64,000 nt of DNA from Thiomicrorhabdus arctica DSM 13458 (GTDB lineage: Bacteria > Pseudomonadota > Gammaproteobacteria > Thiomicrospirales > Thiomicrospiraceae), in contig NZ_KB905901.1 in the NCBI RefSeq assembly GCF_000381085.1, positions 1 to 64,000 of the forward strand, in the 5' to 3' direction. Numbering within the stretch: the first letter of the stretch is position 1; every line of letters starts with the position of its first letter. Under the pieces are notes generated by a model, which saw only the letters and a program-made list of their open reading frames with translations, made no database searches and was not told the DNA's origin. Both the position numbers and the translations under genes were made by a program. Below are positions 11,535-58,136 of the stretch, piece by piece.

Positions 11535-12728
11535 ATGTTAGCCAGTTTACGCTTAAAAAAGAACGAAGAACGCCGCATTCAACAAGGTCATATGTGGGTA
11601 TTTAGTAATGAAGTAGATACCGTTGCAACACCGTTAAAAGATTTTGAGGCTGGGCAGCAAGTCATTATTGAAGCCTCTAACGGTAAGCCATTAGGTATGG
11701 GTTTTGTTAATCCGAATACCTTGATTTGTGCACGTTTACTCAGTCGTAGCGCTAAGCTTGAACTGAATATGAAGTTTTTAAAGAAACGCATTCAAGCTGC
11801 ACAAGAGTTGCGTGAGATGCATTTTGACCAGCCTTTCTATCGACTGGTATTTGGAGATTCTGATGGTCTACCAGGCCTGGTTATTGATCGTTTTGGTGAT
11901 GTATTTGCTGTGCAAATTACCACTGCAGGTATGGAAGTCATCAAAGAGGATATCGTTCAAGTCCTTGAAAACTTATATCACCCACAAGCGATTGTGATGA
12001 AGAATAATACTCCAAGCCGTGAGTTAGAGGGTTTACCTTTGTATGAAGAAGTGGTGTATGGCGAAATGCCTGCTGAACTTATCATTGAAGAGAATGGCGT
12101 GAAATTTTCGATTCCGGTTGAAGGTGGTCAAAAGACCGGTTGGTTTTATGATCATCGTATGGCTCGTGGCCGTCTACAGACGCTGGTTAAAGGCAAGCGC
12201 GTATTGGATGTCTTTAGTTACCTAGGTGGCTGGGGTGTCGCTGCAGCCGTGGCTGGCGCAGAAGAAGTGACTTGCGTTGATTCATCTGAGTTTGCGTTAG
12301 ATGGTGTCGATATCAATGCGGCTTTAAATGGCGTAGCAGAGAAGCTAGTGACTATTCAAGGTAATGCCTTTGATGTCTTAAATGCCCTGCGTACCGATGA
12401 GCAAAAGTTTGATGTTGTCATTGTCGATCCTCCTGCCTTTATTAAGCGTAAAAAAGACTTTAAAAAGGGTGCTGAAGCCTACCGTCGTATCAATGAAATC
12501 GCCATGCGTGTTTTAGAAAAAGACGGTATCTTGGTCTCGGCTTCTTGCTCTCATCATATGACGCGTGATAATTTGTTGACGGCTGTGCAGTCTGCCGCAC
12601 GTCATATTGATCGCAATGTACAATTGTTTGAGCAAGGTCATCAAGGCCCTGATCATCCTATTCATCCCGCGATTCCGGAAACTGAATATATCAAAACGTT
12701 GTTCTTTAAAGTCACACCAACTTGGTAA
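11535..12728 (+). CDS. rlmI: RlmI-type 23S rRNA (cytosine-C5) methyltransferase
   Basis: 397 residues. An N-terminal PUA domain (about 1-75, with EERRIQQGHMWVFSNEV) is followed by an EEHEE-type linker and a Rossmann SAM domain with VLDVFSYLGGWG (motif I) and VDPPAFIKRKKDF (motif IV). A cysteine in SASCSHHM near the C-terminus matches the catalytic position. RlmI makes m5C1962 in 23S rRNA. One CCAGGCCTGG palindrome lies in the gene (11871-11880), coding for Pro-Gly-Leu. It is followed 26 bp later by an unknown gene, probably co-transcribed. Confidence 0.88.
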   Translation: MLASLRLKKNEERRIQQGHMWVFSNEVDTVATPLKDFEAGQQVIIEASNGKPLGMGFVNPNTLICARLLSRSAKLELNMKFLKKRIQAAQELREMHFDQPFYRLVFGDSDGLPGLVIDRFGDVFAVQITTAGMEVIKEDIVQVLENLYHPQAIVMKNNTPSRELEGLPLYEEVVYGEMPAELIIEENGVKFSIPVEGGQKTGWFYDHRMARGRLQTLVKGKRVLDVFSYLGGWGVAAAVAGAEEVTCVDSSEFALDGVDINAALNGVAEKLVTIQGNAFDVLNALRTDEQKFDVVIVDPPAFIKRKKDFKKGAEAYRRINEIAMRVLEKDGILVSASCSHHMTRDNLLTAVQSAARHIDRNVQLFEQGHQGPDHPIHPAIPETEYIKTLFFKVTPTW

Positions 12729-12754
12729 TCGTTAAAAAGGTTTAAAGTCACCCT

Positions 12755-13954
12755 ATGAAAACAGCTTTATCTTTAAACCCGTCCGAAGTTCAACAAAAAC
12801 AGCTTCAAAAACAGTTATCTAAATCCTGTTTTTGGGATGAAGTTGAACAAACCTTGTGGATTGATTGTCGAAAAGTTCTGCCAGAATTTGGTGTTCTGAA
12901 TGTCCCTAGCTGGGATTCTTTAACGATGAGTTCATCTAAAATTCCAGCCTATCCAAACAATCTAAGAATTCTTGATTGGTCTAATTATTCTCAAATTTCT
13001 TATTGGCGTAAACAGATCCCACAATGGGTGCATGATAGCTGTGCGCTTTTCCCTACCCATCAACTCTCCTTGCTGCATTATGCAGGCAAATATCCGCAAG
13101 TTTTAGAGCTACTTGATCATTCTCCAATGCTCGCATGGCGCTTAATAACAGCGGGCTTGGAAGAAGTGGATATTGTCGCGTTATTATCCGGAAAACGCCA
13201 AATTATGGCTGGGCAAGTGGGTTGGCCAGAGAAAGTTGAGACAGTAAAGTTTTTACGTAATTTACGTTTACGGTTAGTAAATGACGAGATTGCCGAGCAA
13301 ATTGAGATTTGTTTAATGGATGAGCAACGTTTAACGGCTTTGCAGACTTTACCTCGAATCAATTCCATGGCTTTGTCTTTGGCAGCTCGTTTTCCTGAGT
13401 TGATTGGCTGTAAATTGCACCATGCACTGGCACAACTACCGTGTCGCCCTATGCAGTGTCAAAGCATGGTGGCGTTACTTGAGGATGCTTATAGATTGGC
13501 TGAAGCCCTGACTTTGCCACACGCTGAGATTGATAAAATTGGCAACTGTAGATATTTGGTGGAAGTGACTCAAGTCTACCAGGCCTGGTTAAAAATAGGA
13601 TGTGACGAGTTTGTGCGGGAGATGATGGCCATCAATTCTGAAAAGAAATCCAATCTCGAACAACGACTCTCAGCAGAGCCAAAGGTAATGACCTCATGGC
13701 AGGATTGGGTTGAAGTCTCTCGATTACAGCAACATGCTTGGTGGTTGGATTATTCTACGAATGCACAGGGGTTAGTCATTTGGCAGGATAAGGTAGGCGT
13801 CTGGTGCGCATTAATCAGCCAAGATTCTGATGAATTCCTTGGTGATTTGCAAACGATTGTGCGGGTAAGAGGGGAGGAAAACTGTTTACCAGGCGCAAAA
13901 CCTTTGTCAGATTTACATCTTTGGCAGGCGCGTTTATTGCCACAAGGCGACTAA
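12755..13954 (+). CDS. Hypothetical protein, 399 residues
   Basis: I do not recognise this family. The protein has many Trp and Leu residues, no signal peptide and no obvious membrane segment. The middle (about 125-250) looks helical and contains LRNLRLRLVNDEIAEQIEICL. It has no catalytic motif I can name. Its start lies 26 bp after the RlmI-like gene, and the only terminator downstream faces the other way, so it is probably in the same transcript. A CCAGGCCTGG palindrome lies at 13579-13588 (Gln-Ala-Trp). Confidence 0.75.
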   Translation: MKTALSLNPSEVQQKQLQKQLSKSCFWDEVEQTLWIDCRKVLPEFGVLNVPSWDSLTMSSSKIPAYPNNLRILDWSNYSQISYWRKQIPQWVHDSCALFPTHQLSLLHYAGKYPQVLELLDHSPMLAWRLITAGLEEVDIVALLSGKRQIMAGQVGWPEKVETVKFLRNLRLRLVNDEIAEQIEICLMDEQRLTALQTLPRINSMALSLAARFPELIGCKLHHALAQLPCRPMQCQSMVALLEDAYRLAEALTLPHAEIDKIGNCRYLVEVTQVYQAWLKIGCDEFVREMMAINSEKKSNLEQRLSAEPKVMTSWQDWVEVSRLQQHAWWLDYSTNAQGLVIWQDKVGVWCALISQDSDEFLGDLQTIVRVRGEENCLPGAKPLSDLHLWQARLLPQGD

Positions 13955-13961
13955 ACGAAAA

Positions 13962-13983
13962 GACCCAAATTTGACCTTGGGTC
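13962..13983 (-). terminator. Terminator for lysA
   Basis: GACCCAA and TTGGGTC form a 7-bp stem. On the minus strand it is followed by TTTTCG, so it fits the end of lysA. On the plus strand it has no T-run. Confidence 0.6.
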
Positions 13984-14033
13984 CTTAAGGTAAGTTTAAG
14001 GTAAGTATTAACCTAAATTTCACGTTGCATCGA

Positions 14034-15287
14034 CTAAGATTCAATCAGGAGCTCAGAACCCATTAGGTCTTCATACGTTTCACGTGGACGAATCAACCAG
14101 GCCTGGTCATTTTGTACCATGAGTTCTGCCGCACGTGGACGTGTATTGTAATTAGAGCTCATGGTGAAACCATAGGCTCCAGAAGACATTACGGCCAACA
14201 AGTCGCCGGCTTTAAGATTTAACGCTCTATCTTTTCCTAAAAAGTCACCCGTTTCACAAACAGGCCCAACTAAATCCCAGTTGGTTTCTAAGCCATCTGT
14301 TCTCGGTGTCACCGCAACAATCTCCTGGTAAGCTTGGTATAACGCCGGACGAATTAAATCGTTCATTGCGGCATCAATAATAGCGAAATTTTTATGTTCA
14401 GTAGGCTTTAGGTATTCAACTTCGGTTAATAGCACACCGGCATTACCCGCGATGGCACGGCCAGGTTCGATAATCACTTCAATATCAGGGTCATTTAATT
14501 TGTTGATTAATGCCTGAATGTATTCCGCAATTGGAGGAGGTACTTCATCGGTATATTGAATGCCTAAACCGCCACCTAAATCTAGGTGATGAATATCAAT
14601 GCCCATCTCAGCGAGCGTCGCTTTCAACGTTAACACACGCTCTAAGGCATCGACAAAAGGCGTTATCTCAGTTAACTGTGAACCGATATGGCAATCAATG
14701 CCAACAGGATTGATGTGCGAGCAAGCGCATGCATCGGCATATAATTCGGGTGCAGTGTTAATATCTACTCCAAACTTATTGTCTTTGAGCCCCGTTGAAA
14801 TATACGGGTGGGTTTTGGCATCAACATCGGGATTAACTCGAATTGAGATATTAGCTATTAAATCCATGGATTCTGCAACCGTTTGAATACGATCCAACTC
14901 GGCATGTGACTCCAAGTTAAAACAACGGATACCGACCTCTAAAGCACGGCGAATTTCGGAAGACTGCTTAGCGACTCCTGAAAAAACTACCTTTTTAGGG
15001 TCACCACCAGCACGCAAAACGCGTTCAAGTTCACCTTGTGAGACAATGTCAAAACCTGCGCCTATCTTTGCTAAACTTTGTAAAACAGCAATATTAGAGT
15101 TGGTTTTAACGGCATAACAAACTAAATGAGGTTGGCTTCCAAAAGCCGTATCAAAAGCCAGCCAGCGGCTCTCGAATTCCGTTTTAGAGTAAACGTACAA
15201 TGGAGTGCCATAGCGTTTTGCTAAGCTGTCTAAAGAGACGTCTTCGGCATGGAGGGTACCGTTTTTAAGTTGAAAAGCATGAGTCAT
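14034..15287 (-). CDS. lysA: Diaminopimelate decarboxylase
   Basis: 417 residues, fold-type III PLP enzyme, last step of lysine synthesis. CYAVKTNSN near residue 60 holds the PLP lysine. HIGSQ and GGGLGI are conserved phosphate and active-site segments, EPGRA binds PLP phosphate, and GPVCETGDFLG holds the substrate-contacting Cys-Glu. The start overlaps the stop of the upstream lptM gene (ATGA), the classical lptM-lysA arrangement of gammaproteobacteria. A CCAGGCCTGG palindrome at 14097-14106 encodes Gln-Ala-Trp. Confidence 0.95.
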   Translation of the reverse strand: MTHAFQLKNGTLHAEDVSLDSLAKRYGTPLYVYSKTEFESRWLAFDTAFGSQPHLVCYAVKTNSNIAVLQSLAKIGAGFDIVSQGELERVLRAGGDPKKVVFSGVAKQSSEIRRALEVGIRCFNLESHAELDRIQTVAESMDLIANISIRVNPDVDAKTHPYISTGLKDNKFGVDINTAPELYADACACSHINPVGIDCHIGSQLTEITPFVDALERVLTLKATLAEMGIDIHHLDLGGGLGIQYTDEVPPPIAEYIQALINKLNDPDIEVIIEPGRAIAGNAGVLLTEVEYLKPTEHKNFAIIDAAMNDLIRPALYQAYQEIVAVTPRTDGLETNWDLVGPVCETGDFLGKDRALNLKAGDLLAVMSSGAYGFTMSSNYNTRPRAAELMVQNDQAWLIRPRETYEDLMGSELLIES

Positions 15288-15451
15288 TTTGATTCCTGAG
15301 AACTAATTAATCGCAAGTTTGTTTGATCAGAAGAGACCGATTGTACGACCTGTTCTGGTGCCTCTTCAGGCAGGACTAAAGGACTTTTTTTGCCACAGCC
15401 TGAGAGAAGAGCCGCCAGCAGCAGTAAAAACATGCTTAAAGATAAATGCAT
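15284..15451 (-). CDS. lptM: LptM-type small lipoprotein (YifL family)
   Basis: A 55-codon gene on the minus strand. It starts at an ATG (15449-15451) and ends in a TGA overlapping the lysA ATG. The product begins MHLSLSMFLLLLAALLSGCG: a short basic-free start, a hydrophobic stretch and a lipobox LSGC, so Cys19 should be lipidated. KKSPL with a following LP is the family mark after the Cys. LptM helps oxidative maturation of LptD in the LPS translocon. Position next to lysA supports the call. Confidence 0.88.
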   Translation of the reverse strand: MHLSLSMFLLLLAALLSGCGKKSPLVLPEEAPEQVVQSVSSDQTNLRLISSQESK

Positions 15452-15584
15452 AAAAATCAGCCATTGGTTTGGGGTATTTATTCAGTACCCGCGCTAAGTG
15501 TTATTGGGAGGTCAGCTTCAATCAACAAGTCTATTTGAAAGATGATTTCTACAATCTCAATAGAATTCTTGTTTAATGAAGTCT

Positions 15585-15604
15585 TCATCCCTTAGAATGA
15601 GGGA
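15585..15604. other. Inverted repeat before the esterase gene
   Basis: ATCCCT and AGGGAT flank TTAGAATG, 28 bp before the esterase start. It could be an operator or a weak hairpin. Confidence 0.25.
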
Positions 15605-15631
15605 TATTTTATCAGAAACGAGCGAGCGACA

Positions 15632-16300
15632 ATGCAAGAAGCGAAACAAGCCCCGCCAATTATTATCGAACCGAAAAGCAAAGCCACTGCTGCGGTGATT
15701 TGGCTACATGGTTTAGGGGCCGATGGCAATGACTTTGCAGGGCTGGTACCGGAGTTAAGGTTACCCACTCAGCATGGCATTCGGTTTATATTTCCGAATG
15801 CACCCGTGCAAGCAGTCACCATAAATGGTGGCATGGAGATGCGTTCTTGGTATGACATTCGTAGTACTGATTTTATGAATGATATTGATGCGGCCGGTAT
15901 TCGGGTTTCTTGTCATGAGATACATGCATTGGTTCAACAGCAGATTGACTCGGGAATTGACGTTGATAAAATTGTTTTGGCAGGTTTTTCGCAAGGAGGC
16001 TTAATCGCACTGCATGCTGGTTTGAGTTTTAGCCAAGCCTTAGCAGGAATTATGGCTCTCTCAACCTATTGCCCTATGAGTGAACAATTTCACTTGCACC
16101 TGCACCTGCCTATTTTAATGGCTCACGGAAAATTCGATACCGTCATTCCAATGCCTGTTGCCAAGCAGTCTGCAGAGTCTTTAACTCAATGTGGGTATGT
16201 CATTGAGTGGTATGAGTATCCAATGGAACATCAAGTCTGTCTGGATGAGATAGAAGACATCTCAACGTGGCTGGTAAAGACGTTATCGATTGCTTTGTAA
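15632..16300 (+). CDS. Alpha/beta-hydrolase, carboxylesterase/phospholipase family
   Basis: 222 residues, length typical of the YpfH/EstB/acyl-protein thioesterase family. IWLHGLGADGNDF (23-35) is the conserved oxyanion-loop region. GFSQGG carries the nucleophile serine near residue 120. HGKFDTVIP holds the acid Asp and MEHQV the catalytic His. Cytoplasmic, with no signal peptide. The substrate is unknown, probably short acyl esters. Confidence 0.88.
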   Translation: MQEAKQAPPIIIEPKSKATAAVIWLHGLGADGNDFAGLVPELRLPTQHGIRFIFPNAPVQAVTINGGMEMRSWYDIRSTDFMNDIDAAGIRVSCHEIHALVQQQIDSGIDVDKIVLAGFSQGGLIALHAGLSFSQALAGIMALSTYCPMSEQFHLHLHLPILMAHGKFDTVIPMPVAKQSAESLTQCGYVIEWYEYPMEHQVCLDEIEDISTWLVKTLSIAL

Positions 16301-16341
16301 TTGATATTAGGATCCTTTCATAAAATAAGAAAAGACTAAAC

Positions 16342-16893
16342 GTGACTGAGCTAAAGAATAGTTTGACAGATCAACAAGCGTGCCTAGATTTTTTTCAATC
16401 TCGTTCGACACTTATGTTAAGTACCTTTAATTCGCAAGGTACCTTGGAAACCAGTGTGGCACCCTTCGTAACGGATAATGAAGGTCACTTCTATTTATTT
16501 GTCAGCGAATTAGCGCGGCACACTCAAAATATTCTAGAGTGGATTACAGTGAATGAAGCTGCATCATTAAACCCTGATTCAGTAAAACGACCAGGCCTGG
16601 TGAGTTGTTTACTGGTGGCTGACGAAATTGAAACCAAGCAGTTGTTTGCACGTGAACGTTTGACGATGCAATTAGAACTGGCCGAAGTACTCAGAGCATC
16701 TTCACACTTTGAATGGATAATGACACGATTCGAATCAAAATTTGGTGAGATCATCACACTGTTAAAAAGTTTACCGGATTTTCATTTGATTCAGTTAACA
16801 CCGGTAACAGGTGGCTATGTCAAAGGGTTTGGCCAAGCATTTACCTTTAAAGGTTTTCCGGGTCAGCAATTGCAACCAATTCAACAGAAATAA
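16342..16893 (+). CDS. HugZ/HutZ-like heme utilisation protein
   Basis: 183 residues with the split-barrel FMN-binding fold. The N-terminus reads STLMLSTFNSQG and ETSVAPFV, and the C-terminus has GGYVKGFGQAF, which in the HugZ/HutZ family lies near the heme-binding histidine tail. In HutZ relatives the protein binds or degrades heme and frees iron. Here the family is supported, but the heme ligands cannot be judged by eye. A general pyridoxamine-oxidase-like role is the alternative. A CCAGGCCTGG palindrome lies at 16591-16600 (Pro-Gly-Leu). Confidence 0.75.
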   Translation: MTELKNSLTDQQACLDFFQSRSTLMLSTFNSQGTLETSVAPFVTDNEGHFYLFVSELARHTQNILEWITVNEAASLNPDSVKRPGLVSCLLVADEIETKQLFARERLTMQLELAEVLRASSHFEWIMTRFESKFGEIITLLKSLPDFHLIQLTPVTGGYVKGFGQAFTFKGFPGQQLQPIQQK

Positions 16894-16938
16894 GTGCAAT
16901 AAAAATAAAACCCATCCTAAAGATAAAAGGAATTTGTC

Positions 16939-17859
16939 ATGCCTAGTCCAAGGCGTTACTTTAGATATGATGTAAAGGTCCCGATGCACTTGGAACCCGT
17001 TGACCGTTATGGGAAATATCTAGGTGCAGACCGTCGCCAATTGATAAATGAGAAAGAAGAGGCGCATTTAAAGAAGTTGGGTGGTCAGCTAGATGAACTG
17101 CTCGGTAAAGTCATTAATGCGAGTTCACATGCTCCTCATGTCTTTTTTGTATTGAATCATAGAATCAATTTTATGTGGTGGATGACGGATTTATTGATAG
17201 AGTCAAACGATCCACGCCAACAAAGTGACTATCAATTTCGCTCTAAAGAAGACCTAAAATTCTCACCACCGAGCAGTAAAAAAGGCTCTAGCATCACTCC
17301 TTTAGTTCAGGGGTTATACCGAGCGATTGAGCTGTATATTGCAGAATTGCAAACGGTGATTCGAAAAAGTGTTTCCGGTAAGATATTTCTTTATCCATGG
17401 GCTTCTCAAGGAATGTTTAGTGCCACTCGTTATGTTAAAAATTTGGATAATTTAGTCGATTCAGGCATTTTACCTGCGAAAGTCCTTAAGTTGATGATTG
17501 AAAAGCTTAATTTACAGGCAACGGTTTTAGAACGTTTAAAAGGGGTTTACCGTAAGGTTTCTCTTGCAGAGACGTGGCCGAGTTACCAAGCCAATTTAAG
17601 TTGTGGGGGGTTTAGTTTTTTAACCAATGAGACGTATCCTATTTTTGGAAAGATGGATATTTTTATGGAAATTGACGCAGAGGTGATGGTCTGCCGTGGC
17701 AAAATCATCTCCCAGGTCTTCATGGAAGGTCGGCCATTTCAATATCGCATTGGGGTCGAGTTCGATTTTCTAACGAGTGAGCAAGTGCATGCTATTACTC
17801 TGTTTTTACAGCATAAAGAGATTGAGGATGCTATGGCCATGGTGGCTTTACCTTTTTAA
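16939..17859 (+). CDS. Interrupted PilZ-type protein A
   Basis: 306 residues. The first 16 residues contain RRYFRYDVKVPM, a PilZ-like RxxxR (Arg5, Arg9) followed by a strand. The second PilZ mark, NxSxxG, appears only at NLSCGG (219-224), followed by strands and IGVEFDFL (271-278), the usual PilZ end. About 190 mostly helical residues lie between the two halves. In normal PilZ domains the two motifs are about 20-30 residues apart. It is similar in plan to the 313-residue protein 600 bp downstream on the other strand. A c-di-GMP effector role is inferred. Confidence 0.7.
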   Translation: MPSPRRYFRYDVKVPMHLEPVDRYGKYLGADRRQLINEKEEAHLKKLGGQLDELLGKVINASSHAPHVFFVLNHRINFMWWMTDLLIESNDPRQQSDYQFRSKEDLKFSPPSSKKGSSITPLVQGLYRAIELYIAELQTVIRKSVSGKIFLYPWASQGMFSATRYVKNLDNLVDSGILPAKVLKLMIEKLNLQATVLERLKGVYRKVSLAETWPSYQANLSCGGFSFLTNETYPIFGKMDIFMEIDAEVMVCRGKIISQVFMEGRPFQYRIGVEFDFLTSEQVHAITLFLQHKEIEDAMAMVALPF

Positions 17860-34590: not shown

Positions 34591-35550
34591 TTATTTTTGG
34601 AGTTCAATCTGTGCTTCCAAGCAATCAAACAAAGTGCCGGCAATATTTAAATCAAATTGCGCGTCGAGCTCACGAATGCAGGTTGGACTGGTCACATTAA
34701 TCTCGGTAATGTAATCACCAATAACATCCAAACCAACAAAATACAGCCCTTTGGCTTTAAGTGTCGGTTTAATCTGTTCACACAACCAACGTTCACGTTC
34801 GGTGATTGGCATGCCCACACCGGTTCCGCCTGCAGCGATATTACCGCGAGTCTCCCCTTCAGCTGGAATACGCGCTAAGGTGTAGTCAAGTGGCTCACCA
34901 TTTATCAGCAAAATACGTTTATCACCTGCTTTAATCTCAGGTAAATATGTTTGCGCCATAATGTGGTGTTTGCCATGGTCGGTCATGGTCTCAATGATGA
35001 CGCTAATATTCGGGTCATCTTGTTTAACCCTAAAGATTGAAGCACCGCCCATCGCATCCAGCGGTTTAAAAATAGTGTCTTGATGGTGACTTATAAAAGC
35101 TCGTAACTTATCTGCATTGGCGGTGACGATCGTAGGGGGGATACATTGTGAGAACCAGCTGGCAAACAATTTTTCATTCGCATCACGTAAGCTCTGGGGT
35201 TTGTTCACCACTAAAACGCCTTCCGCTTCGGCCAACTCTAAAATATGTGTGCTATAGAGGTAGTCATTGGTAAATGGGGGGTCTTGGCGAATCAAAATGA
35301 TATCTAACGTGTTGAGTGCGATGTCATGACGGCCGTCGAAGTCGAAATATTGTTCTGTTTTAGGCCTATCCCATACGTTAAGGCCACGGGTAATTGACCA
35401 GGCCTGGCCATCTTTCAGATAAAGATCTTCAGGTTGCATATAAACCAATTCATGACCGCGTCGTTGAGCTTCTAACAGCATCGCAAAGGAGCTGTCTTTA
35501 TGTGGTTTAATGTTTGCAATGGGATCCATTACTATGCCGACTTTAAGCAT
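34591..35550 (-). CDS. gshB: Glutathione synthetase
   Basis: 319 residues with an ATP-grasp fold. N-terminal VGIVMDPIANIKPHKDSSFAML and C-terminal GDYITEINVTSPTCIREL are very conserved in GshB. Joins gamma-glutamylcysteine and glycine. gshA follows 1.4 kb upstream on the same strand with an NnrS gene between. A CCAGGCCTGG palindrome lies at 35398-35407 (Gln-Ala-Trp). Confidence 0.96.
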   Translation of the reverse strand: MLKVGIVMDPIANIKPHKDSSFAMLLEAQRRGHELVYMQPEDLYLKDGQAWSITRGLNVWDRPKTEQYFDFDGRHDIALNTLDIILIRQDPPFTNDYLYSTHILELAEAEGVLVVNKPQSLRDANEKLFASWFSQCIPPTIVTANADKLRAFISHHQDTIFKPLDAMGGASIFRVKQDDPNISVIIETMTDHGKHHIMAQTYLPEIKAGDKRILLINGEPLDYTLARIPAEGETRGNIAAGGTGVGMPITERERWLCEQIKPTLKAKGLYFVGLDVIGDYITEINVTSPTCIRELDAQFDLNIAGTLFDCLEAQIELQK

Positions 35551-38489: not shown

Positions 38490-39233
38490 TTATATATCAC
38501 CCCAGAGTGATTGTAATATAGCTAAAATTGCAGGGCCGGCGGTTTCGGTGCGCAGTACTCTAGGGCCGAGTTGTATTGGAATGAGTCCTATGGTTTCTGC
38601 TTGCTGGACTTCTATTTCGCTTAAGCCACCTTCAGGGCCTATCAGCAATTGTATCGGCGTGCTTGCAGTAGGTGCTTTTACCGTCTTTAAGTTGTGTTCA
38701 GCATGAGGGTCCAATACTAAACCAAAGATCGGTTGGTCCGGGTTTTGTGCTTCTAACCAGGCCTGGTAGCTTTGAATCGGGAATATGATAGGAACGACTG
38801 TGCGACCACTTTGCTCGCAGGCATTAATCACAATGGCTTGCCACTGGTTACGGCGCTTTTCTAACTTATCGACCTCCAGTTTAACATCACAGCGTTCCGT
38901 GAGAATCGGTTGAATCGCCGTTACCCCGAGCTCAACGGCTTTTTGGATTGTGGTATCCATTCGATCCCCTTTGGAAACGCCTTGTACTAAGACGGTTTTC
39001 AAAGGGGATTCGTTATCGGATTTTACGACGGATTCGATATGCAAGTCAGCTGTACGCCGACTGGTCACGATGAGTTTACCCGTAGCGAGCAATCCTGATC
39101 CATTGAAGGCTTCAATCAAATAGCCATGTTTAAGACGTAACACCGTTAATGCATAATGCGCCTGTTCTTTGGGCAACGCAATCGTTTGATTAACTTGATA
39201 GTTGCCTTCTAAGAATAGACGTGAAATGCGCAT
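38490..39233 (-). CDS. rsmE: 16S rRNA m3U1498 methyltransferase RsmE
   Basis: 247 residues with a SPOUT (knotted) fold. N-terminal PUA-like part, then VQGVSKGDRMDTTIQKAVELG and the knot LLIGPEGGLSEIE and LGPRVLRTETA. A CCAGGCCTGG palindrome lies at 38757-38766 (Gln-Ala-Trp). Confidence 0.95.
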   Translation of the reverse strand: MRISRLFLEGNYQVNQTIALPKEQAHYALTVLRLKHGYLIEAFNGSGLLATGKLIVTSRRTADLHIESVVKSDNESPLKTVLVQGVSKGDRMDTTIQKAVELGVTAIQPILTERCDVKLEVDKLEKRRNQWQAIVINACEQSGRTVVPIIFPIQSYQAWLEAQNPDQPIFGLVLDPHAEHNLKTVKAPTASTPIQLLIGPEGGLSEIEVQQAETIGLIPIQLGPRVLRTETAGPAILAILQSLWGDI

Positions 39234-40147: not shown

Positions 40148-40165
40148 GTAGCCAGGCCTGGCTAC
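40148..40165. repeat. 18-bp palindrome with CCAGGCCTGG core, metK-metF
   Basis: GTAGCCAGGCCTGGCTAC is perfect over 18 bp. One of the intergenic copies of the recurrent palindrome. There is no T-run, so an intrinsic terminator is unlikely. Confidence 0.85.
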
Positions 40166-44752: not shown

Positions 44753-45859
44753 ATGACCCCGATTACAAAACGTATTGGTGTATTAGGTGCTGGACAGCTC
44801 GGTCGCATGTTGGCAATTGCGGGTTACCCGTTGGGCCAAAAATTTGGTTTCTACGGCAGTAATAAAAGCGAACCGTCTGCGCTGCTGGGTCATATGTATA
44901 TGCAATCGGATGACGTGGATTCTCTGGCGGATTTAGCGAGTTTTGCGGATGTCATTACTTATGAAAGTGAGAACACCGATGTGGCGATGGTACGTGAAAT
45001 TGCAAAAACTACACCGGTCTACCCTGGTGAGAAGTCTTTGTATACAGCTCAACATCGTGGTCGAGAAAAAGGGATGTTTGACCAGCTCAATATTCCTTGT
45101 GCACCTTATCAAATCGTAGATTCCCTTGAAAGCTTAAAACGTGCCGTCGCAAAGATTGGCTTGCCAGCCGTTTTAAAAACCACCACTGAAGGCTATGATG
45201 GTAAAGGCCAGTTTGTTTTAAAAGACGAAAATCAAATTGACCAGGCCTGGTCAGAAATTGGTGGACGTGAATTGGTGTTAGAAGGGTTTATTAACTTCCA
45301 GCGTGAATTATCGATGGTGGCGGTACGTAATGCCAATAATGAACATGTTTATTATCCATTAGTACAAAATGTGCACCACGAAGGCATTTTGCGCTATACC
45401 ATTGCGCCAGCGCGTAAAGTTTCAGAAAAAACACAACAAAAAGCCGAAGCTTACATGCAGAGCTTGCTGGATGAGTTAGATCATGTTGGTGTTTTAACGT
45501 TAGAATTATTTGAAACGGTTGATGGTTTAGTCGCTAATGAGATGGCGCCTCGAGTGCATAACTCAGGGCACTGGACCATTGAAGGTGCGATGACTTCGCA
45601 GTTTGAAAATCATGTACGTGCAATCACGGGTTTGCCTTTAGGCGCAACGACACCACGTCAGCCATTGGCCGCGATGATTAACATTATTGGCGAAACGGGT
45701 CCAATCGATCAGGTTTTAAAAGTGCCAAAAGCGTTTTTACATTTGTACGATAAAGAGGAGCGTGCTGGACGTAAGTTAGGCCATATCAATATTATCGCTG
45801 AGACCGAAGAGGAACTTTTTGAAGTTTTTAAAGTCTTGGCTGATTTCTTACCGAAGTAG
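44753..45859 (+). CDS. purK: N5-carboxyaminoimidazole ribonucleotide synthase PurK
   Basis: About 368 residues, ATP-grasp. GVLGAGQLGRMLAIAGYPLG at the N-terminus, TTEGYDGKGQF and EMAPRVHNSGHWT are typical. GGAG lies six bases before the ATG at 44753, so I prefer this to the ATG at 44741 in which GGAG is part of the frame. A CCAGGCCTGG palindrome lies at 45241-45250 within a 14-bp dyad. Confidence 0.95.
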   Translation: MTPITKRIGVLGAGQLGRMLAIAGYPLGQKFGFYGSNKSEPSALLGHMYMQSDDVDSLADLASFADVITYESENTDVAMVREIAKTTPVYPGEKSLYTAQHRGREKGMFDQLNIPCAPYQIVDSLESLKRAVAKIGLPAVLKTTTEGYDGKGQFVLKDENQIDQAWSEIGGRELVLEGFINFQRELSMVAVRNANNEHVYYPLVQNVHHEGILRYTIAPARKVSEKTQQKAEAYMQSLLDELDHVGVLTLELFETVDGLVANEMAPRVHNSGHWTIEGAMTSQFENHVRAITGLPLGATTPRQPLAAMINIIGETGPIDQVLKVPKAFLHLYDKEERAGRKLGHINIIAETEEELFEVFKVLADFLPK

Positions 45860-45942: not shown

Positions 45943-47406
45943 TTAATCTCGATAACTCATTAATTGGCTCATAACAGAGGCCAGTTCGGAAGGTAATATT
46001 CCGGGCTGGCCTTTTTGTTGGGCGAGCACATCTCCAGCATGTGCATGTAATGAAACGCCTAAACAGGTGGCATCCCAAAGGGATAAACCTTGGGCAATAA
46101 AGGTCGCTATTGTGCCAGTCAGCACGTCCCCCATCCCACCTACGGCCATGCCTGGATTACCCGCCAGACAAATTTCTAAATGTTTGCCGTCATACATTAA
46201 ACTGCCATTGCCTTTTAAGACAATCACGCCGCCATATTTCTGTTGTAAGGCCTTAATGGCCTGGATGCGATTGGCTTGAATCTCAGGTGTAGTCATATTG
46301 AGTAATAAAGCGGCTTCTCCAGGATGCGGTGTCAGTACCCAATTACTGTGTTTTTGCGGATTTAGGGCCAGTAGTTTCAACGCATCCGCATCGACGACTT
46401 TCGGTAAAGGCACGTCCAAGACTTGTTGATAGAGCGTTTTAGCCCAATCGTCTAGCCCTAGTCCGGGTCCAATCCCTACCACGTTAGCAAGATTGGCTTG
46501 AATGGTTAACTCTTCAGGCTGATAACACATCAGCTCAGGAATGCTTTGCGTAATGGCAACGGTGTGTTCTGAATGGGTAATCACTTTGACCAGGCCTGCT
46601 CCGACCTTTAGGCTCGCCAAACCGGCAAGCTGAATAGCACCCATCATCGAATGGTTTCCGCCCACTAAGCAAACTGTTCCAGCGACCCCTTTATGTTGGC
46701 TAGCGAGGCGCTCAGGTAATTTATTCATCCAGTATTTTAGGGGGTGGTTCAATGCAAGAGGTGATTGGCTTTGGAGAATTTCTAATGGTAAGAACAGGCG
46801 ACTGTAGTGCACTTTTCCGGCGGTATCAGTACCTTGAAAAGTATGTAAGCCTAACTTTCGAGTCATAAAAGTACAAGTATGGGTCGCGTGAATCGCTTGA
46901 CCTAAAATGGCACCGGTATCCGCGTGTAAGCCGCTGGGTGTATCCAATGCTAATACGGGTTTTTTTAGATGATTGAGCCATTGGATCTGTTTGGCGAGTT
47001 GACCGCTAATCGGTCGGTTGAGCCCTGTGCCAAATAGGGCGTCCACCAAAACATCTGCTTGAATGATAATGCTTTCAGCAAAGGGGCTGGTGGTCATGCC
47101 GACAGCAAGCATTTCTTGGTAGGCAATCAGTGCATCCCCCTGAATGGACTCAGGATTGCCATGGAGCAAAACATGCACCTCCATGCCTGCCAGTAACGCC
47201 AACTGAGCCACCACGAAGCCATCACCACCGTTGTGACCGGTACCACAAAATACTACGATGGATTGTGGGTTACTGAAGTGGTGTTGTAAGGTTTCAAAAG
47301 CAAATAAACCGGCTCTTTTCATTAAAAGAATCCCAGGGATGTTCCTTTCTTTAATAGCAATTTGGTCGATGATCTGGCTTTGATGGGCGGTATGAAAACG
47401 AAGCAT
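45943..47406 (-). CDS. nnr: Bifunctional NAD(P)HX epimerase/dehydratase
   Basis: 487 residues. The N-terminal YjeF epimerase half has VVFCGTGHNGGDGFVVA (51-67). The C-terminal ADP-dependent dehydratase half has VLTPHPGEAALLL and AVGGMGDVLTGTIA. It repairs hydrated NADH and NADPH. In many gammaproteobacteria it lies next to tsaE; here it does not. A near copy of the recurrent palindrome (one mismatch) lies at about 46590. Confidence 0.95.
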   Translation of the reverse strand: MLRFHTAHQSQIIDQIAIKERNIPGILLMKRAGLFAFETLQHHFSNPQSIVVFCGTGHNGGDGFVVAQLALLAGMEVHVLLHGNPESIQGDALIAYQEMLAVGMTTSPFAESIIIQADVLVDALFGTGLNRPISGQLAKQIQWLNHLKKPVLALDTPSGLHADTGAILGQAIHATHTCTFMTRKLGLHTFQGTDTAGKVHYSRLFLPLEILQSQSPLALNHPLKYWMNKLPERLASQHKGVAGTVCLVGGNHSMMGAIQLAGLASLKVGAGLVKVITHSEHTVAITQSIPELMCYQPEELTIQANLANVVGIGPGLGLDDWAKTLYQQVLDVPLPKVVDADALKLLALNPQKHSNWVLTPHPGEAALLLNMTTPEIQANRIQAIKALQQKYGGVIVLKGNGSLMYDGKHLEICLAGNPGMAVGGMGDVLTGTIATFIAQGLSLWDATCLGVSLHAHAGDVLAQQKGQPGILPSELASVMSQLMSYRD

Positions 47407-50888: not shown

Positions 50889-50920
50889 CTGCGGCAGGCG
50901 ACTAAAAGGCAGTCTAAGCG

Positions 50921-52072: not shown

Positions 52073-52106
52073 GTTTGAATTTAGATTTAAATGCTTTTTT
52101 CAAGAA

Positions 52107-52122
52107 TGACCAGGCCTGGTCA
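52107..52122. repeat. 16-bp palindrome with CCAGGCCTGG core, plsY-tsaD
   Basis: TGACCAGGCCTGGTCA is a perfect palindrome between two convergent genes. No T-run on either side. Confidence 0.85.
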
Positions 52123-52149
52123 ATCTAGTGATGACAAAATTAAGGGCAA

Positions 52150-53193
52150 TCACTCCTTAAGGGTAACCTTTATGGGTGGTAAGTCTTCCAAAGACCATCT
52201 TGGCGTGGCGGCAAAATTCAAATCATTGCACTGTCCTGCTAATAATCGCTGTGCACCCGCATAGGCAATCATTGCGCCATTGTCGGTGCAAAACTCCAGT
52301 CTTGGGTAAAAGGATTCGCCACGACGTTTCTTCATGAGTTGGTCTAGTTTAGCTCGAATCTCACGGTTGGCGCTGACGCCACCCGCAACCACAATACGAT
52401 TTAGGCCTTCTTGCTCTAAAGCACGTTTGCATTTTATGGTCAGGGTTTCCGCAACAGACAGCTCAAATGCACGGCAAATATCCGCTTTAGTTTGTTCGCT
52501 AGAGTCCCCTTCTGCAACCGCTTTCAACCAAGTGTTACGGGTAAATGTTTTTAAACCGCTGAAACTCATATCTATACCAGGGCGATCAACCATTGGTCGT
52601 GGAAAAATGTAGCGCCCGGATTCACCTTTTAAAGCTAGGTTGGATACATTCGGACCGCCGGGGTAGCCGAGTTCAAGTAATTTAGCGGTCTTATCAAAAG
52701 CTTCACCCGCAGCATCATCTAAAGTTTCACCAAGTAGTTTGTATTGACCAATGCCATCGACACGAATAATCATGGTATGCCCACCGGAAACTAATAAACA
52801 GATAAAAGGGAATTCAGGCTTGTTATCCTCTAACATGGGGGCAAGAAGATGACCTTCCATATGATGGACACCGATTGCAGGGATGTCGAGTGCATAAGCC
52901 AGACTGCGCGCAACGGAAGTTCCAGTCAGTAATGCGCCAATCAGACCGGGCCCAGCTGTGTAAGCGATACCATCCAGTGCGTCTTTAGAAATGTGAGCAT
53001 CTTCTAAGGTCTGTAGAATGAGTGGTGTTAATTTACGGATGTGATCACGAGAAGCCAGTTCGGGTACGACACCACCATATTGCGCATGTAGTTCGACTTG
53101 TGTGTAAAGTGTATCGGCAATTAGGCCTTTATCAGTATCGTATAGGGCGATTCCTGTTTCATCGCACGAGCTTTCTATTCCTAAAACCAACAT
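52150..53193 (-). CDS. tsaD: tRNA t6A transferase TsaD
   Basis: About 347 residues. [11 protein letters not shown] at the start, [11 protein letters not shown] (metal-binding His pair) and VSGGHTM are signature motifs. It transfers threonylcarbamoyl to A37 of ANN-reading tRNAs. I prefer the ATG at 53193 over the one at 53217, since the protein family begins MLVLGIE. Divergent from rpsU, as usual. Confidence 0.96.
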
Positions 53194-53264
53194 GGCGTAT
53201 TCTTCTCTCTCATTCAAAGTGGCTGAATTTTAACAAACAATCTCGTTTTTTATCATAAAAAGGT

Positions 53265-53293
53265 TTGCAAAATGTCGGCTACGAAATTATAAT
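53265..53293 (+). promoter_or_regulatory. Sigma-70 promoter of rpsU
   Basis: TTGCAA and TATAAT are exactly 17 bases apart, 76 bp before the rpsU start. Probable promoter of the macromolecular synthesis operon. Confidence 0.85.
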
Positions 53294-53368
53294 CCTACGT
53301 TTTCCGCTGTTCTCCATTTCTTGCGTGGTGAATAAGAACCGATATATAAAAATCAATTAGGTAAAATT

Positions 53369-53584
53369 ATGCCAAGCGTAAAGATCAGAGATACTGAACC
53401 ATTTGACGTAGCACTACGTCGTTTTAAGCGTGCTTGTGAAAAAGCAGGTGTTTTAACTGAGACTCGTAAGCGCGAGTATTATGAGAAGCCTACTTGGGCT
53501 AAGAAGCGTATGAAAGCAGCGGCTGTTAAGCGTTTAGCTAAGCGTTTGTCTCGCGACAACCGTCGTACGACTCGTATGTATTAA
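53369..53584 (+). CDS. rpsU: 30S ribosomal protein S21
   Basis: 71 residues, very basic. The start [20 protein letters not shown] is near identical to gammaproteobacterial S21. First gene of the rpsU-yqeY-dnaG-rpoD cluster. Confidence 0.98.
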
Positions 53585-53606
53585 TAATTGGATTGGATGA
53601 GTCTTA

Positions 53607-54056
53607 ATGTCTAATACGATGCAAGAACGACTTACAGCTGAAATGAAAGCCTGTATGAAAGCTAAGAATAAAGAGCGCCTAGTTGTAGTGCGTTCTTTGA
53701 TAGCTGCAATCAAACAGGTTGAGATCGATTCAGGCGCTGCCGTAGATGAAGCAGCTGCTCTAGCGATTGTTGACAAAGCTATGAAGCAGCGTCGAGATTC
53801 TCATCAGCAATTTGTGGACGCAGATCGTTCAGATTTAGCTGAGCAAGAAGCCTTTGAAATGACGGTCATTCAGGATTTCATGCCAGATGCTTTAACAGAC
53901 GAAGAAGTGAACAGACTTATCGATGAAGCCATGGCTTCTAGTGGTGCGGCCTCCATGCAAGACATGGGTAAGGTTATGGGTTTATTAAAGCCTACGATGC
54001 AAGGTCGTGCCGATATGGGTGTGGTAAGTAAGCTGATTAAAGCAAAGTTAGTTTAA
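53607..54056 (+). CDS. yqeY: GatB/YqeY domain protein
   Basis: 149 residues; the tail domain of GatB as a stand-alone protein. MKACMKAKNKERLVVVRSLI, QDFMPDALTDEEV and MGKVMGLLKP are typical. Role uncertain, perhaps tRNA-linked. Commonly inserted between rpsU and dnaG. Confidence 0.94.
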   Translation: MSNTMQERLTAEMKACMKAKNKERLVVVRSLIAAIKQVEIDSGAAVDEAAALAIVDKAMKQRRDSHQQFVDADRSDLAEQEAFEMTVIQDFMPDALTDEEVNRLIDEAMASSGAASMQDMGKVMGLLKPTMQGRADMGVVSKLIKAKLV

Positions 54057-54122
54057 AACGTTTTTAACTTTTTAAGCTCTGTTGTGATAAGTTGTTTTAG
54101 ATAAAATGATTTCGACCCAATT

Positions 54123-54156
54123 TAAAACCCGCCAGTGAATCACTGGCGGGTTTTTG
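54123..54156 (+). terminator. Terminator between yqeY and dnaG
   Basis: CCCGCCAGTG pairs with CACTGGCGGG around AAT, with flanking A and T runs. In this operon such an internal terminator tunes dnaG below rpsU. Confidence 0.92.
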
Positions 54157-54198
54157 CGTTTAATGACCTGTGTATTTTTCTGTGGATAAGGTGTGAGT

Positions 54199-55977
54199 AT
54201 GTCTAGTCAGTCTGGATCAATTCCGCGTTCCTTTATCGAGAGTTTGTTATCTCGAGCAGATGTGGTGCAAGTTATAAATCAGCGTGTTCCCCTCAAAAAA
54301 GCAGGCACTTCCTATAAAGCCTGTTGTCCTTTTCATGATGAGAAGTCACCTTCCTTTAATGTCAGTCCAACCAAACAGTTTTATCATTGTTTTGGATGCG
54401 GTGCCAGTGGGGATGCTCTTAAGTTTTTAATGGAATATGAGGGGCTGTCTTTTGTTGAAGCTGTTGATACCTTAGCCTCACAGTATGGTATGGAAGTTCC
54501 ACGTGAAAAGTTAACACCAGAAAGGCAGAAAGCCCAACAAGTCAAACAGCAGAAGCAACATGATTTATATGATGTGATGCATTTGGCAGCCAAATTTTAT
54601 CGTCATCAATTGCGAGACCATGCGTCTGCGCTTGAAGCCAAATCCTACCTAAAGGCTCGAGGCTTAAGTGCTGAGATCGCTAAACAGTTCGTGATTGGAT
54701 TAGCGCCACCAGGTTGGAATAGTTTGGTTTCTGGCCTTAAAGCCGATGCGAAATTAAAGCAACAGTTGGTTGAAGTTGGTCTATTGGTGCAAAAAGAAGA
54801 TGGCAAACTCTATGATCGGTTTCGGCACCGAATCATGTTCCCTATTCGTGATGGGCGGGGTCGAGTGATTGCTTTTGGCGGACGTGTTTTGGGTGATGAA
54901 CAACCTAAGTACTTGAATTCGCCAGAAACGCCCATATTTCATAAGGGTAGGACTTTGTACGGTTTGTACGAGATGCGCCAATCACGCCAAAAATTTGAAA
55001 GTATTTTGGTGGTAGAAGGGTATATGGATGTTGTCGCGCTGGCTCAGTTTGAAGTCCATAATGCGGTTGCAACACTGGGTACAGCGACGACGATTGACCA
55101 TATAGAGATCTTGTTCAGGCAGGTTAACGAGATTGTCTTCTGTTTTGATGGCGACTCTGCCGGACTTAAGGCGGCATGGAAGGCTTTAGAGTTGGTATTA
55201 CCCCTGATGCAGCAAGAACGTTCGGTCAAGTTTCTGTTCTTGCCGGAAGGTCAGGATCCAGACTCGATGATTCGTGAAGATGGTTTTGAGGGTTTTCAAA
55301 CGAGAATCAAGGAAGCCTTGCCTTTGTCGGCTTTTTTACTACAAGGTTTGCAGGGTCGGTTATCTTCTCCTGTAAACTCGATAGAAGGACGTCAGCAGTT
55401 GGTCGCATTAGCACAGCCTTACGTGCAATCAGCGCAGGATTTATATCAGTTCCTATTGGCGGAAGGCGTTGCAGAGGTGGTCGGTTTGCCCACTTGGCGT
55501 GTAGAAAAACAGATGGATGTCAAGTCTGGTTTTGCTCAGTTTAAGTCCGACTCAGGTAAAAAAACCTCTCAGAGTGTTAAGGTCAGTCGAGTCGTCACTA
55601 TGCCATTGAAAATGGTGCGGATTCTCCTAAAAAGACCAGAGTGGGCAGATTTCTTCGCACCAGAATTTTGTGAAGATTTATTTAGATCAAATGAACGTGA
55701 TCACAGTGTTTTAGGCGGTGTAATCGAGTCATTACAGTTTAATCAATTTATTGCAGAAGCAGGGCTTAATTGGATGAATGCCAATGGTTATCAAGCAGAG
55801 TTGGCATTGATTGAGCAGTCTCCAGTCCCTGATGATGAAGGTTTCCTGTTGGCTGAATTTGAGGCCGTGGTGTTAGGTTTGGGTAAGTTGATTGATGAAA
55901 AAAGTTTGGGACAATCAGGCTGGAGTGCTGAAGAAATGGCTAAGTTACAAATCATGATTAAAGATTCATCCCCATAG
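54199..55977 (+). CDS. dnaG: DNA primase
   Basis: 592 residues from ATG 54199, with AAGG seven bases before it. The CHC2 zinc site is in CCPFHDEKSPSFNVSPTK and YHCFGCGASGD. The TOPRIM core has VVEGYMDVVAL and FCFDGDSAG. The C-terminal DnaB-binding part is present. Makes RNA primers at the fork. Confidence 0.97.
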   Translation: MSSQSGSIPRSFIESLLSRADVVQVINQRVPLKKAGTSYKACCPFHDEKSPSFNVSPTKQFYHCFGCGASGDALKFLMEYEGLSFVEAVDTLASQYGMEVPREKLTPERQKAQQVKQQKQHDLYDVMHLAAKFYRHQLRDHASALEAKSYLKARGLSAEIAKQFVIGLAPPGWNSLVSGLKADAKLKQQLVEVGLLVQKEDGKLYDRFRHRIMFPIRDGRGRVIAFGGRVLGDEQPKYLNSPETPIFHKGRTLYGLYEMRQSRQKFESILVVEGYMDVVALAQFEVHNAVATLGTATTIDHIEILFRQVNEIVFCFDGDSAGLKAAWKALELVLPLMQQERSVKFLFLPEGQDPDSMIREDGFEGFQTRIKEALPLSAFLLQGLQGRLSSPVNSIEGRQQLVALAQPYVQSAQDLYQFLLAEGVAEVVGLPTWRVEKQMDVKSGFAQFKSDSGKKTSQSVKVSRVVTMPLKMVRILLKRPEWADFFAPEFCEDLFRSNERDHSVLGGVIESLQFNQFIAEAGLNWMNANGYQAELALIEQSPVPDDEGFLLAEFEAVVLGLGKLIDEKSLGQSGWSAEEMAKLQIMIKDSSP

Positions 55978-56059
55978 AATGAAAGTGTTGGCACAGAAAT
56001 TGACTGCTAACACGCTCATTTTTAAGGGAAAATCGTAACAAATTAATTTAAAAGTTTAG

Positions 56060-56065
56060 TATAAT
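56060..56065 (+). promoter_or_regulatory. -10 element upstream of rpoD
   Basis: TATAAT 80 bp before the rpoD start with only a weak TAACAA 18 bases upstream. A separate rpoD promoter inside the operon is common. Confidence 0.5.
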
Positions 56066-56145
56066 TGCGCGTTCCGTTTTTTTACACGCAGTTTTATCAG
56101 AAATAATCCGTAAGCGGAATCAAGCAATATTATTTGAGGCAATAC

Positions 56146-57933
56146 ATGACTAAAGTCGAAAGAAAGCAACAGTTAACGGATCTAATTGAACGCGCAAAGG
56201 AACTGGGTTATTTAACCTTTGCGGATGTCAACGATGTCTTACCAGATGACATTGAGGAAGATCAGTTAGGTCAAGTTTTAACGATTCTAAAAGACTTTGG
56301 AATCAAGTTATTTGATGCGGCACCTGATGAGGATGAATTACTCACTCAGGAAGGTGGTGTCTTTGATGAATCTGCTGCGGAAGCGGCACTTACTGCACTA
56401 TCTGAAGTTGATGGTGAGTTTGGTCGTACAACGGATCCTGTTCGTATGTATATGCGCGAGATGGGTTCAGTAGAGCTTTTGACGCGCCACGGTGAAGTTG
56501 ATATCGCCAAACGTATTGAATTTGGAAACCGCGATATGCTGGATGCTTTAGCTAAGTATCCAGTTTATGCGAATACCATTTTAAGCACGTTCAAGAAGAT
56601 GGAAAGTGGTGAAGGTAAAATCGCCGATGTCATTCAAGGTTTCTACCGTCCAGCTGACTTGATTGATATTCCAATTGCAGAGCTTTCACCTGATAGTGAT
56701 GCTAACAACGAACCCAAAGAAGAAGGGATTAACCCTGAAGAATTAGCTGAATTCTTGAAAAAGCTTGAAAAGTTTAGCGTTGCAGCACAATTAGCTGCTG
56801 ATAAAGACGGTGCAGATGATCCTAAGTCGATAAAAAAACGACAGGCCGTCATTGAACATTTACGTGGTGTTCGAATTACGCCTTTATTCTCAACCAGAAT
56901 GATGCGTCTAATCAAGGCTAGAATCCAATCCATTCGCGAGCAAGAACGTGTTATTGTCGATATCGTGATGCGTAAAATTGGTGTACCACGTGCTACGTTT
57001 TTAAAAACATTTGTAGGCTCTGAGCGAGACTATGAAATGGTGGATCGTTTGATTGAAAATTCACCTAAACATGCTGAGGCTTTAGAAGCCGCTCGTGGTG
57101 ATATTAAACGTGCTCAAAAACGTTTAGCGATGATTTCCAAGGCTGAAAAAATGCCGATTGCACTCTACAAGACAATCTACAAAGATTTGAGTAAGTCAGA
57201 GACAACAGCTCGTCTTGCTAAGCGTGAGATGATTGAGGCTAATTTACGTTTGGTTATCTCGATTGCTAAAAAATACACAAATCGTGGTCTTCAATTCCTA
57301 GATTTGATTCAGGAAGGTAATATTGGTCTGATGAAGGCCGTTGATAAGTTTGAATATCGTCGTGGTTACAAGTTTTCGACTTATGCAACCTGGTGGATTC
57401 GTCAGGCGATTACTCGCTCTATCGCCGATCAGGCACGTACTATCCGTATTCCAGTACATATGATTGAGACGATCAATAAATTAAATCGTATCCAACGTCA
57501 GTTATTACAAAGAATGGGTCGTGAACCGACGCCTGAAGAGCTGGCAGAAGAGATGGAGATGCCCGAAGACAAAATCCGCAAGGTCATGAAAATTGCCAAA
57601 GAGCCTATCTCTATGGAAACACCAATTGGTGATGATGAAGATTCTTCTTTAGGTGACTTCATAGAAGATTCGAACATTCTTTCTCCACAGGATGCAGCGG
57701 ATTCAGAAGGTATGAGTGAAACGGTTCGAGAGATGTTAAACACTCTTACACCGCGTGAAGCGAAAGTATTGCGCATGCGTTTTGGTCTAAGCATGAATAC
57801 AGACCATACGTTAGAAGAGGTTGGCAAACAGTTCGATGTGACGCGTGAGCGTATTCGTCAAATTGAAGCAAAAGCGTTACGAAAGCTTCGCCATCCTAGT
57901 CGAGCAGAACGTTTAAAAAGCTTCTTAGATTAA
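56146..57933 (+). CDS. rpoD: RNA polymerase sigma-70 (RpoD)
   Basis: 595 residues from ATG 56146, with GAGG six bases before it. Region 1.1 at the start, an acidic non-conserved region (about 190-240), 2.3-2.4 with [15 protein letters not shown], and 4.2 with [20 protein letters not shown]. Primary sigma factor. Confidence 0.98.
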
Positions 57934-58070
57934 TTCTACGAGCGAGGAATTCTATTAACGGCTACCCTTCAGCGTTAGACAATGGTGGCTTACATTAGTA
58001 AGCTTTCTATTTAATTGCTTGTATCAAATTGAATAGAAGTTTCTTAGTTCGAGATAGTCTGTATTAATGT

Positions 58071-58099
58071 TTCACAAAGCGGTTGGCAGTCGTTATAAT
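58071..58099 (+). promoter_or_regulatory. Promoter of the CAU tRNA
   Basis: TTCACA and TATAAT are 17 bases apart, so transcription should begin near 58106, before the 28-bp palindrome. Confidence 0.75.
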
Positions 58100-58108
58100 A
58101 AGCGCCAA

Positions 58109-58136
58109 TTAAACTCACCAGGCCTGGTGAGTTTAA
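58109..58136. repeat. 28-bp palindrome in the tRNA leader
   Basis: A perfect 28-bp palindrome centred on AGGCCT, 12 bp before the tRNA. It is the longest copy of the CCAGGCCTGG family. By the promoter position it would be part of the tRNA precursor. Confidence 0.9.

Follow-up and report, generated by a model that had tools for sequence, protein, structure and literature searches.

A chromosome-wide palindrome in Thiomicrorhabdus arctica as a putative dialect of a DNA uptake sequence in the Thiomicrospiraceae

In Thiomicrorhabdus arctica DSM 13458, the initial 64 kb of contig 3 (NZ_KB905901.1, positions 1 to 64,000, hereafter the window) carry a recurrent palindrome with the core CAGGCCTG, which was originally noticed as the 10-mer CCAGGCCTGG in a sequence-only reading of this DNA. 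On balance, this palindrome is probably the local dialect of a DNA uptake sequence that spans the family, i.e., a self label for natural transformation like the uptake signal sequences (USS) of the Pasteurellaceae and the DNA uptake sequences (DUS) of the Neisseriaceae. The existence of dialects, an A-tract, hairpin-forming pairs, a bias towards gene ends and a spread over both strands resemble USS and DUS. The chances appear only marginally better than even that the Thiomicrospiraceae form a third lineage, independent of the other two, that recognizes self-DNA by its sequence for transformation, and in which the uptake sequence turned palindromic in many species by doubling of a half-site while sister lineages kept or regained one-sided dialects. 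The sequence-only reading had considered a site for a nucleoid or division protein, an element similar to the highly iterated palindrome HIP1 of cyanobacteria, or a product of methylation and repair. An uptake sequence was absent from that list and is the best reading of the data presented here.

All ten copies of CCAGGCCTGG reported for the window were found where they had been placed, and eight of them extend to the 12-mer ACCAGGCCTGGT. The claim that far less than one copy would arise by chance in 64 kb is borne out by 100 shuffles, which gave a mean of 0.01. The genome of T. arctica (2.55 Mb, 6 contigs, 99.95% complete) contains 397 copies of the 10-mer, 333 of the 12-mer and 522 of the core, while the reversed-letter controls yielded 0, 0 and 4. 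The frequency is far over expectation, and with hundreds of copies over the genome the element is indeed chromosome-wide. In 444 kb of T. arctica sequence (the window and 19 further stretches), the core was found 212 times on both strands compared with 12 expected from an order-3 model. CCAGG overall (663 vs 661 expected) and GGCC (2326 vs 2763) gave no such signal. A general enrichment of CCAGG, AGGCCT or GGCC, for which expectations come from unmasked sequence, was rejected apart from the core itself. Sampled core densities in T. arctica are even: each of the 19 stretches holds 2-8 copies per 20 kb, with a dispersion of 0.50 (lower tail 0.042). Even spacing was discarded as a rule, as it is clear only in genome G036, while the spacing coefficients of T. 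arctica, G019 and G061 are near those of random points. In G061, short gaps are fewer than expected despite the near-random coefficient.

In a survey of 58 genomes, the 12-mer was abundant in some members of the genus and in a single genome from each of three other genera of the family, while genomes outside the family had 0 or 1 copies. When the core was counted in 62 genomes of the family, 32 proved rich (236-1173 copies) and 30 poor (0-74 copies). A class-wide draw of 369 genomes, 365 of them outside the family, contained no outsider that matches the core density of the rich members. The highest-ranking genome from outside the family has 338 cores in 4.1 Mb (82 per Mb), compared with 236 in 2.0 Mb for the least dense rich member (G006), 204 per Mb for T. 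arctica and 840 in 1.9 Mb for G035. On a tree of ComEC from 30 genomes, the rich or poor state must have changed five times, and well-supported branches force three of these changes; in this count G024 was scored as poor although it carries another dialect.

The full site is substantially longer than the 12-mer. It comprises about 24 bp, within genes as well as between them, with the left half AAAnYRACCAGG meeting the right half CCTGGTYRnTTT at the centre. Outside the 12-mer, a purine at position -7, a pyrimidine at -8 and A at -12 to -10 are conserved together with their mirror image, placing the A-tracts one helical turn off the centre. The A-tract is present at both coding and intergenic sites in T. 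arctica, G005, G026, G030 and G065 and weaker in G009, G019 and G036. Complementarity between the two flanks was analyzed with G075 excluded. While 138 intergenic copies show excess complementarity at positions 5-9, the 270 coding copies do so at positions 5-7 and stay at the level given by base composition at positions 8-12. The outer flank signal of coding copies therefore sits in the DNA, and an RNA hairpin as the sole cause of the pattern was rejected on the same grounds.

Rich relatives, unlike poor ones, also retain the core at orthologous places. The palindrome thereby withstood both ways of refutation named in the sequence-only reading, a genome-wide frequency at expectation and a lack of conservation in relatives. 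The window was compared by blastn with 32 gshB loci, 16 of which were rich and 16 poor as judged from local density. In the rich loci, an identical core was present at 15 of 28 orthologous sites once the nearest relative, L003, is set aside (17 of 31 when it is included), while background 8-mers were identical in 7.3%. In the poor loci, the core was identical at 2 of 28 sites, with a background of 7.2%. Note that these cases stem from only four or five sites in related species and are not independent. The aligned positions in genes are mostly gapless, which indicates that sites are gained and lost by substitution.

Word counts in samples of core-poor genomes brought to light that some of these relatives carry other spellings with the same layout. 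Some of the genomes counted as poor are thus not truly poor. G024 has a palindromic variant, ACCGGCCGGT, with 1025 copies (control 1) and an A-tract in the same register. Other spellings are asymmetric. One of them, written AAAACTCAACAGGCCGGGT or ACAGGCCGGG, reaches 537 copies in G021 (268 + 269 on the two strands) and 154 + 167 in G004, with controls of 1 + 3 and 0 + 0, respectively. AAAATCTGCCAGGTTGGGG is found in G064, G068 and Hydrogenovibrio sp. JE_KL2, and CCAGGTTGGG in G064 and G068. The motif is palindromic in the species of the window and asymmetric but strand-balanced in G021 and in the samples of G064 and G068. When the spellings are aligned on their centres, the register is fixed, with A at -12 to -10 and GG at -2 and -1; the exception is G075, which has no A-tract. 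The tract is strong in T. arctica, G024, G021, G064 and G068 and weaker in G019 and G036. For two asymmetric spellings, the frequency of A upstream amounts to 0.81-1.00, while that of T downstream is 0.17-0.31 and near background. The asymmetric motifs were counted again on held-out stretches, fetched after the motifs had been defined. Here, 14 copies in 80 kb were found for G064, 12 in 60 kb for G068 and 14 in 80 kb for G021, where 0.17, 0.12 and 0.14 were expected, and the one-sidedness persisted (upstream A 0.88-1.00, downstream T 0.24-0.31). The same 220 kb contain nine inverted pairs less than 80 bp apart, and in five of them an A tail precedes and a T tail follows a short hairpin. Judged from their sequence, such pairs resemble terminators. 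In Hydrogenovibrio sp. JE_KL2, blastn aligns an inverted pair of a different dialect with the palindrome at window site 40153.

Weaker candidates for dialects are provided by two more words. CCCCCCTA, located past an A/T-rich stretch in motif-poor Thiomicrorhabdus metagenome-assembled genomes (MAGs; L008-L015, L238-L242), occurs 19 times vs 2.4 expected and 10 times vs 2.5 expected in 87 kb of new stretches; some of all these copies are mutual orthologues. In G071 (L235-L237, L254-L257), the A-tract word AAAAAGTCGGGGACCCCC recurs within and between genes. The related word AGTCGGGG was counted 7 times in 60 kb and a further 7 times in another 80 kb, where 1.2 copies were expected and six of the 7 equal AAAAAGTCGGGGACCCCC or come near it. 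AAAATCGAC, AAAAAGCCC, AAAACGCCC, AGCGTAAAG, AAAGTCGAA, GAACAGGT and CGACTTAC, likewise from motif-poor genomes, were set aside as codon runs, ordinary terminators or unclear cases. The sample of G063 (L207-L210) is dominated by words occurring 27-81 times in 80 kb, which points to a many-copy repeat array.

With regard to placement, open reading frames (ORFs) were defined by a simple length rule and not by a gene finder. Cores inside ORFs use all three frames (149, 134 and 29 in nine genome samples), in agreement with the earlier proposal that DNA rather than protein is constrained. Nine of ten genome samples have an intergenic site density that exceeds the coding density 2.1- to 6.6-fold; in G075 the ratio is 0.6. 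Convergent gaps hold 1.93 sites per kb, co-directional gaps 1.0 and divergent gaps 0.28, and 56 of 84 co-directional sites lie closer to the upstream stop. These densities and the bias towards upstream stops argue against promoter regulation and speak for use at gene ends.

Such a distribution could also be produced by intrinsic terminators or by intergenic elements of the repetitive extragenic palindromic (REP) type, which would be copied or selected for hairpin function and leave the in-gene copies as by-products. This explanation draws on the gene-end and convergent bias, the excess complementarity of intergenic copies, the inverted pairs, the mostly intergenic location of asymmetric copies and a multi-copy intergenic repeat that bears the palindrome (L213). 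Its fit is better for the asymmetric dialects than for the palindromic one. Terminators alone leave the in-gene copies unexplained, and REP-type insertion the gapless sites in genes. REP elements would be expected as inserted intergenic units with shared flanks. In T. arctica, however, two thirds of the sites (74 of 111 counted) lie inside ORFs, aligned gene positions are mostly gapless and differ mainly by substitution rather than insertion, and no more than 16 of 122 sites have flanks in common with another site, several of these being close neighbours. In-gene flanks at positions 8-12 also lack the excess complementarity that exists at 5-7. As most sites have unrelated flanks, REP elements or transposition were rejected as the source, and we regard the terminator or REP explanation as a whole as improbable.

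Each copy of the 10-mer can be read as two abutting CCWGG (Dcm-type) sites, and a product of methylation and repair was among the options of the sequence-only reading. A Dcm-type origin is not supported, since CCAGG as such occurs at expectation, the other dialects break the CCWGG pair and profiles of three methyltransferase families, PF00145 (C5), PF01555 (N6/N4) and PF02086 (D12), have no match in T. arctica, with other adenine-methyltransferase classes not searched. Among rich genomes, G010 (86% complete), G015, G018 and G022 likewise lacked matches to the three profiles. A product of Dcm and very short patch repair as well as HIP-type methylation were discarded for these reasons. The suggested kinship with HIP1 fares somewhat differently. 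A HIP1-like palindrome, generated or maintained through DNA methylation and mismatch repair, would account for a GC-rich palindromic core in hundreds of copies, for the alternate palindromes of relatives and for the small number of core mutants, a property also described for HIP1 (PMC4390886). That paper further describes HIP1 and alternate HIPs of cyanobacteria as short GC-rich palindromes with hundreds of copies, patchy among relatives and replaced by other palindromes, and presents the methylation-based models as dependent on a methyltransferase (PMC4390886). While the palindromic form fits, the lack of a cognate methyltransferase of the three families, the extended layout with A-tract flanks and the asymmetric dialects do not, and we deem this origin very improbable.

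A stronger competitor, though still an unlikely one, is the binding site of a global dimeric DNA-bending protein of the chromosome, either nucleoid-associated or acting in division or segregation like SlmA, Noc or MatP, with a specificity that shifts from species to species. The palindromic form is well accounted for by such a dimer, given the dyad symmetry and two-sided A-tracts in the species of the window, the even sampled densities, the weak positive correlation between left and right flank scores (0.18, 439 sites) and the absence of half-site enrichment in T. arctica. The one-sided dialects with a single A-tract and the inverted pairs are explained less well, and the bias towards gene ends does not favor this interpretation either. 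SlmA, Noc and MatP sites are likewise palindromic sites of chromosomal proteins, but their copies are far fewer. A site of exactly this kind, which would be limited in number and biased towards origin or terminus, appears less likely given the much higher copy number and the even sampled densities found here. In addition, no bias along the chromosome is apparent in the samples, in which positions were not mapped to origin and terminus, and asymmetric dialects exist.

The uptake-sequence reading accommodates these features together. Hundreds of copies, dialects with a conserved layout, an A-tract at helical spacing, inverted pairs at gene ends as putative terminators and the loss or change of the motif between related species all recall USS or DUS. 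The restriction to one family within the class-wide draw, the conservation of place in rich relatives and the bias towards gene ends likewise speak for this reading. According to PMC12616744, which describes the layout, dialects and inverted-pair terminators of uptake sequences, these are known from Neisseriaceae and Pasteurellaceae only. Like the site described here, the USS of the Pasteurellaceae combines a core with an AT-rich tract at helical spacing, forms dialects and inverted-pair terminators and occurs in many copies within and between genes (PMC12616744, PMC1852404). In contrast, the sequence is unrelated, the A-tract in the Thiomicrospiraceae flanks the core on the opposite side or on both, the motif is palindromic in many species and its role in uptake is putative. 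The DUS is similar in having several dialects in one family, hairpins at gene ends and many copies, and differs in lacking distant AT tracts (PMC12616744); moreover, the profile ComP_DUS has no match over cut-off here. USS receptors differ in type from ComP (PMC12616744).

For the putative uptake sequence we infer a receptor, a bias in uptake and a resulting drive. A surface receptor, probably a minor pilin of a type IV system, would bind the A-tract, one helical turn and the GC-rich core and would favor DNA fragments carrying this layout. Recombination of such fragments with the chromosome would restore and spread the motif, and changes in the receptor would shift its spelling and give rise to dialects. 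In the species of the window, both halves bear the same half-site, so that the site is a palindrome and could be read from either side, while it is one-sided elsewhere in the family. Gene-end copies, whether solitary or in inverted pairs, may double as intrinsic terminators. A gene for ComEC, the sole competence gene looked for, is present in T. arctica and altogether in 55 of 60 genomes of the family. When the fetched stretches were scanned for prepilin motifs, nothing was found for T. arctica.

Several observations weigh against an uptake sequence. ComEC is also encoded in genomes without a visible motif and consequently does not separate rich from poor genomes. No ComEC match was obtained for G004 and G006, two drafts that carry the motif. 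None of 62 genomes matched ComP_DUS over cut-off; this is weak evidence, because 14 control genomes did not match either and the reach of the profile is uncertain. Among the open-access matches listed in exact-string and topic searches, there is no report of this motif, nor of uptake sequences or transformation in the Thiomicrospiraceae. Six poor relatives, G003, G013, G014, G020, G025 and G031, showed no clear motif in samples of 40-80 kb each, and G075 has neither the A-tract nor the intergenic excess. Asymmetric copies are rare inside ORFs (4 of 14 in G064, 1 of 12 in G068 and 2 of 14 in G021), as would befit terminators. In nine genomes, 264 perfect cores stand against just 67 single-base mutants, about 25 of which are expected by chance, while the USS of Haemophilus is more tolerant of mutants. 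The lack of half-site enrichment in T. arctica fits a symmetric binder.

If the uptake-sequence reading is true, these environmental chemolithoautotrophs would harbor the third family of uptake sequences, with several spellings and a switch between palindromic and asymmetric forms. The evolution of uptake specificity, the identity of the receptor and the spread of the motif by drive or by selection would become testable. Switches of dialect among related species make it possible to look for the receptor through co-variation, and transformation of these marine sulfur-oxidizing bacteria would gain a practical handle in the motif.

Within the window, whose nearest loci belong to Thiomicrorhabdus, Thiomicrospira and Hydrogenovibrio and whose GshB shares 92% identity with its counterpart in a Thiomicrorhabdus MAG, the sites have no strand assigned. 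The 12-mer ACCAGGCCTGGT resides in genes for an RlmI-like methyltransferase (11870..11881), a PLP-dependent (pyridoxal phosphate) decarboxylase (14096..14107), a HutZ-like protein (16590..16601) and an RsmE-type RNA methyltransferase (38756..38767, core kept by several relatives) as well as in ORF 12755-13954, which has no family match (13578..13589). The 10-mer CCAGGCCTGG lies in gshB (35398..35407), where several rich relatives keep the core at the orthologous place. Longer palindromes had been assigned to the intergenic copies. This applies to 18 bp between metK and metF (40148..40165, reported at 40152), 16 bp between the convergent plsY and tsaD (52107..52122, reported at 52110) and 28 bp between rpoD and a tRNA-Met gene (58109..58136, reported at 58118), whereas a further 16-bp palindrome (45238..45253, reported at 45241) is within purK, with the core kept in L004, L026, L032 and L033. 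The near copy announced near 46590 is ACCAGGCCTGCT (46589..46600), which differs from ACCAGGCCTGGT by one mismatch, has an intact core and is part of a gene for an NAD(P)H-hydrate epimerase/dehydratase. A twelfth core, without extension, is located in an umuC-type gene (7485..7492). The region from 17 to 35 kb has no sites and contains ordinary metabolic genes.

It had also been stated that a mobile element in the window is free of copies. There are none past 58.2 kb, but this has little meaning because only about one copy is expected in these 6 kb. Positions 58149-64000 comprise the tRNA-Met gene and, past it, a region that encodes a phage GPA-type replication protein (61077-62639) and is perhaps an integrated element. 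Elsewhere in the T. arctica genome, L213:13573-15641 lacks ORFs of 100 amino acids and contains duplicated units of up to 300 nt with five copies of the palindrome; an Rfam search of this segment gave no match. A second palindrome is over-represented at several places in the window, with three sites for GTTAACGTTAAC, seven for TAACGTTA and eight for CGTTAACG, and its 12-mer form is absent from loci L001-L082. Finally, the octamer GACATTGA/TCAATGTC occurs 13 times in the window, where 2.5 copies are expected.

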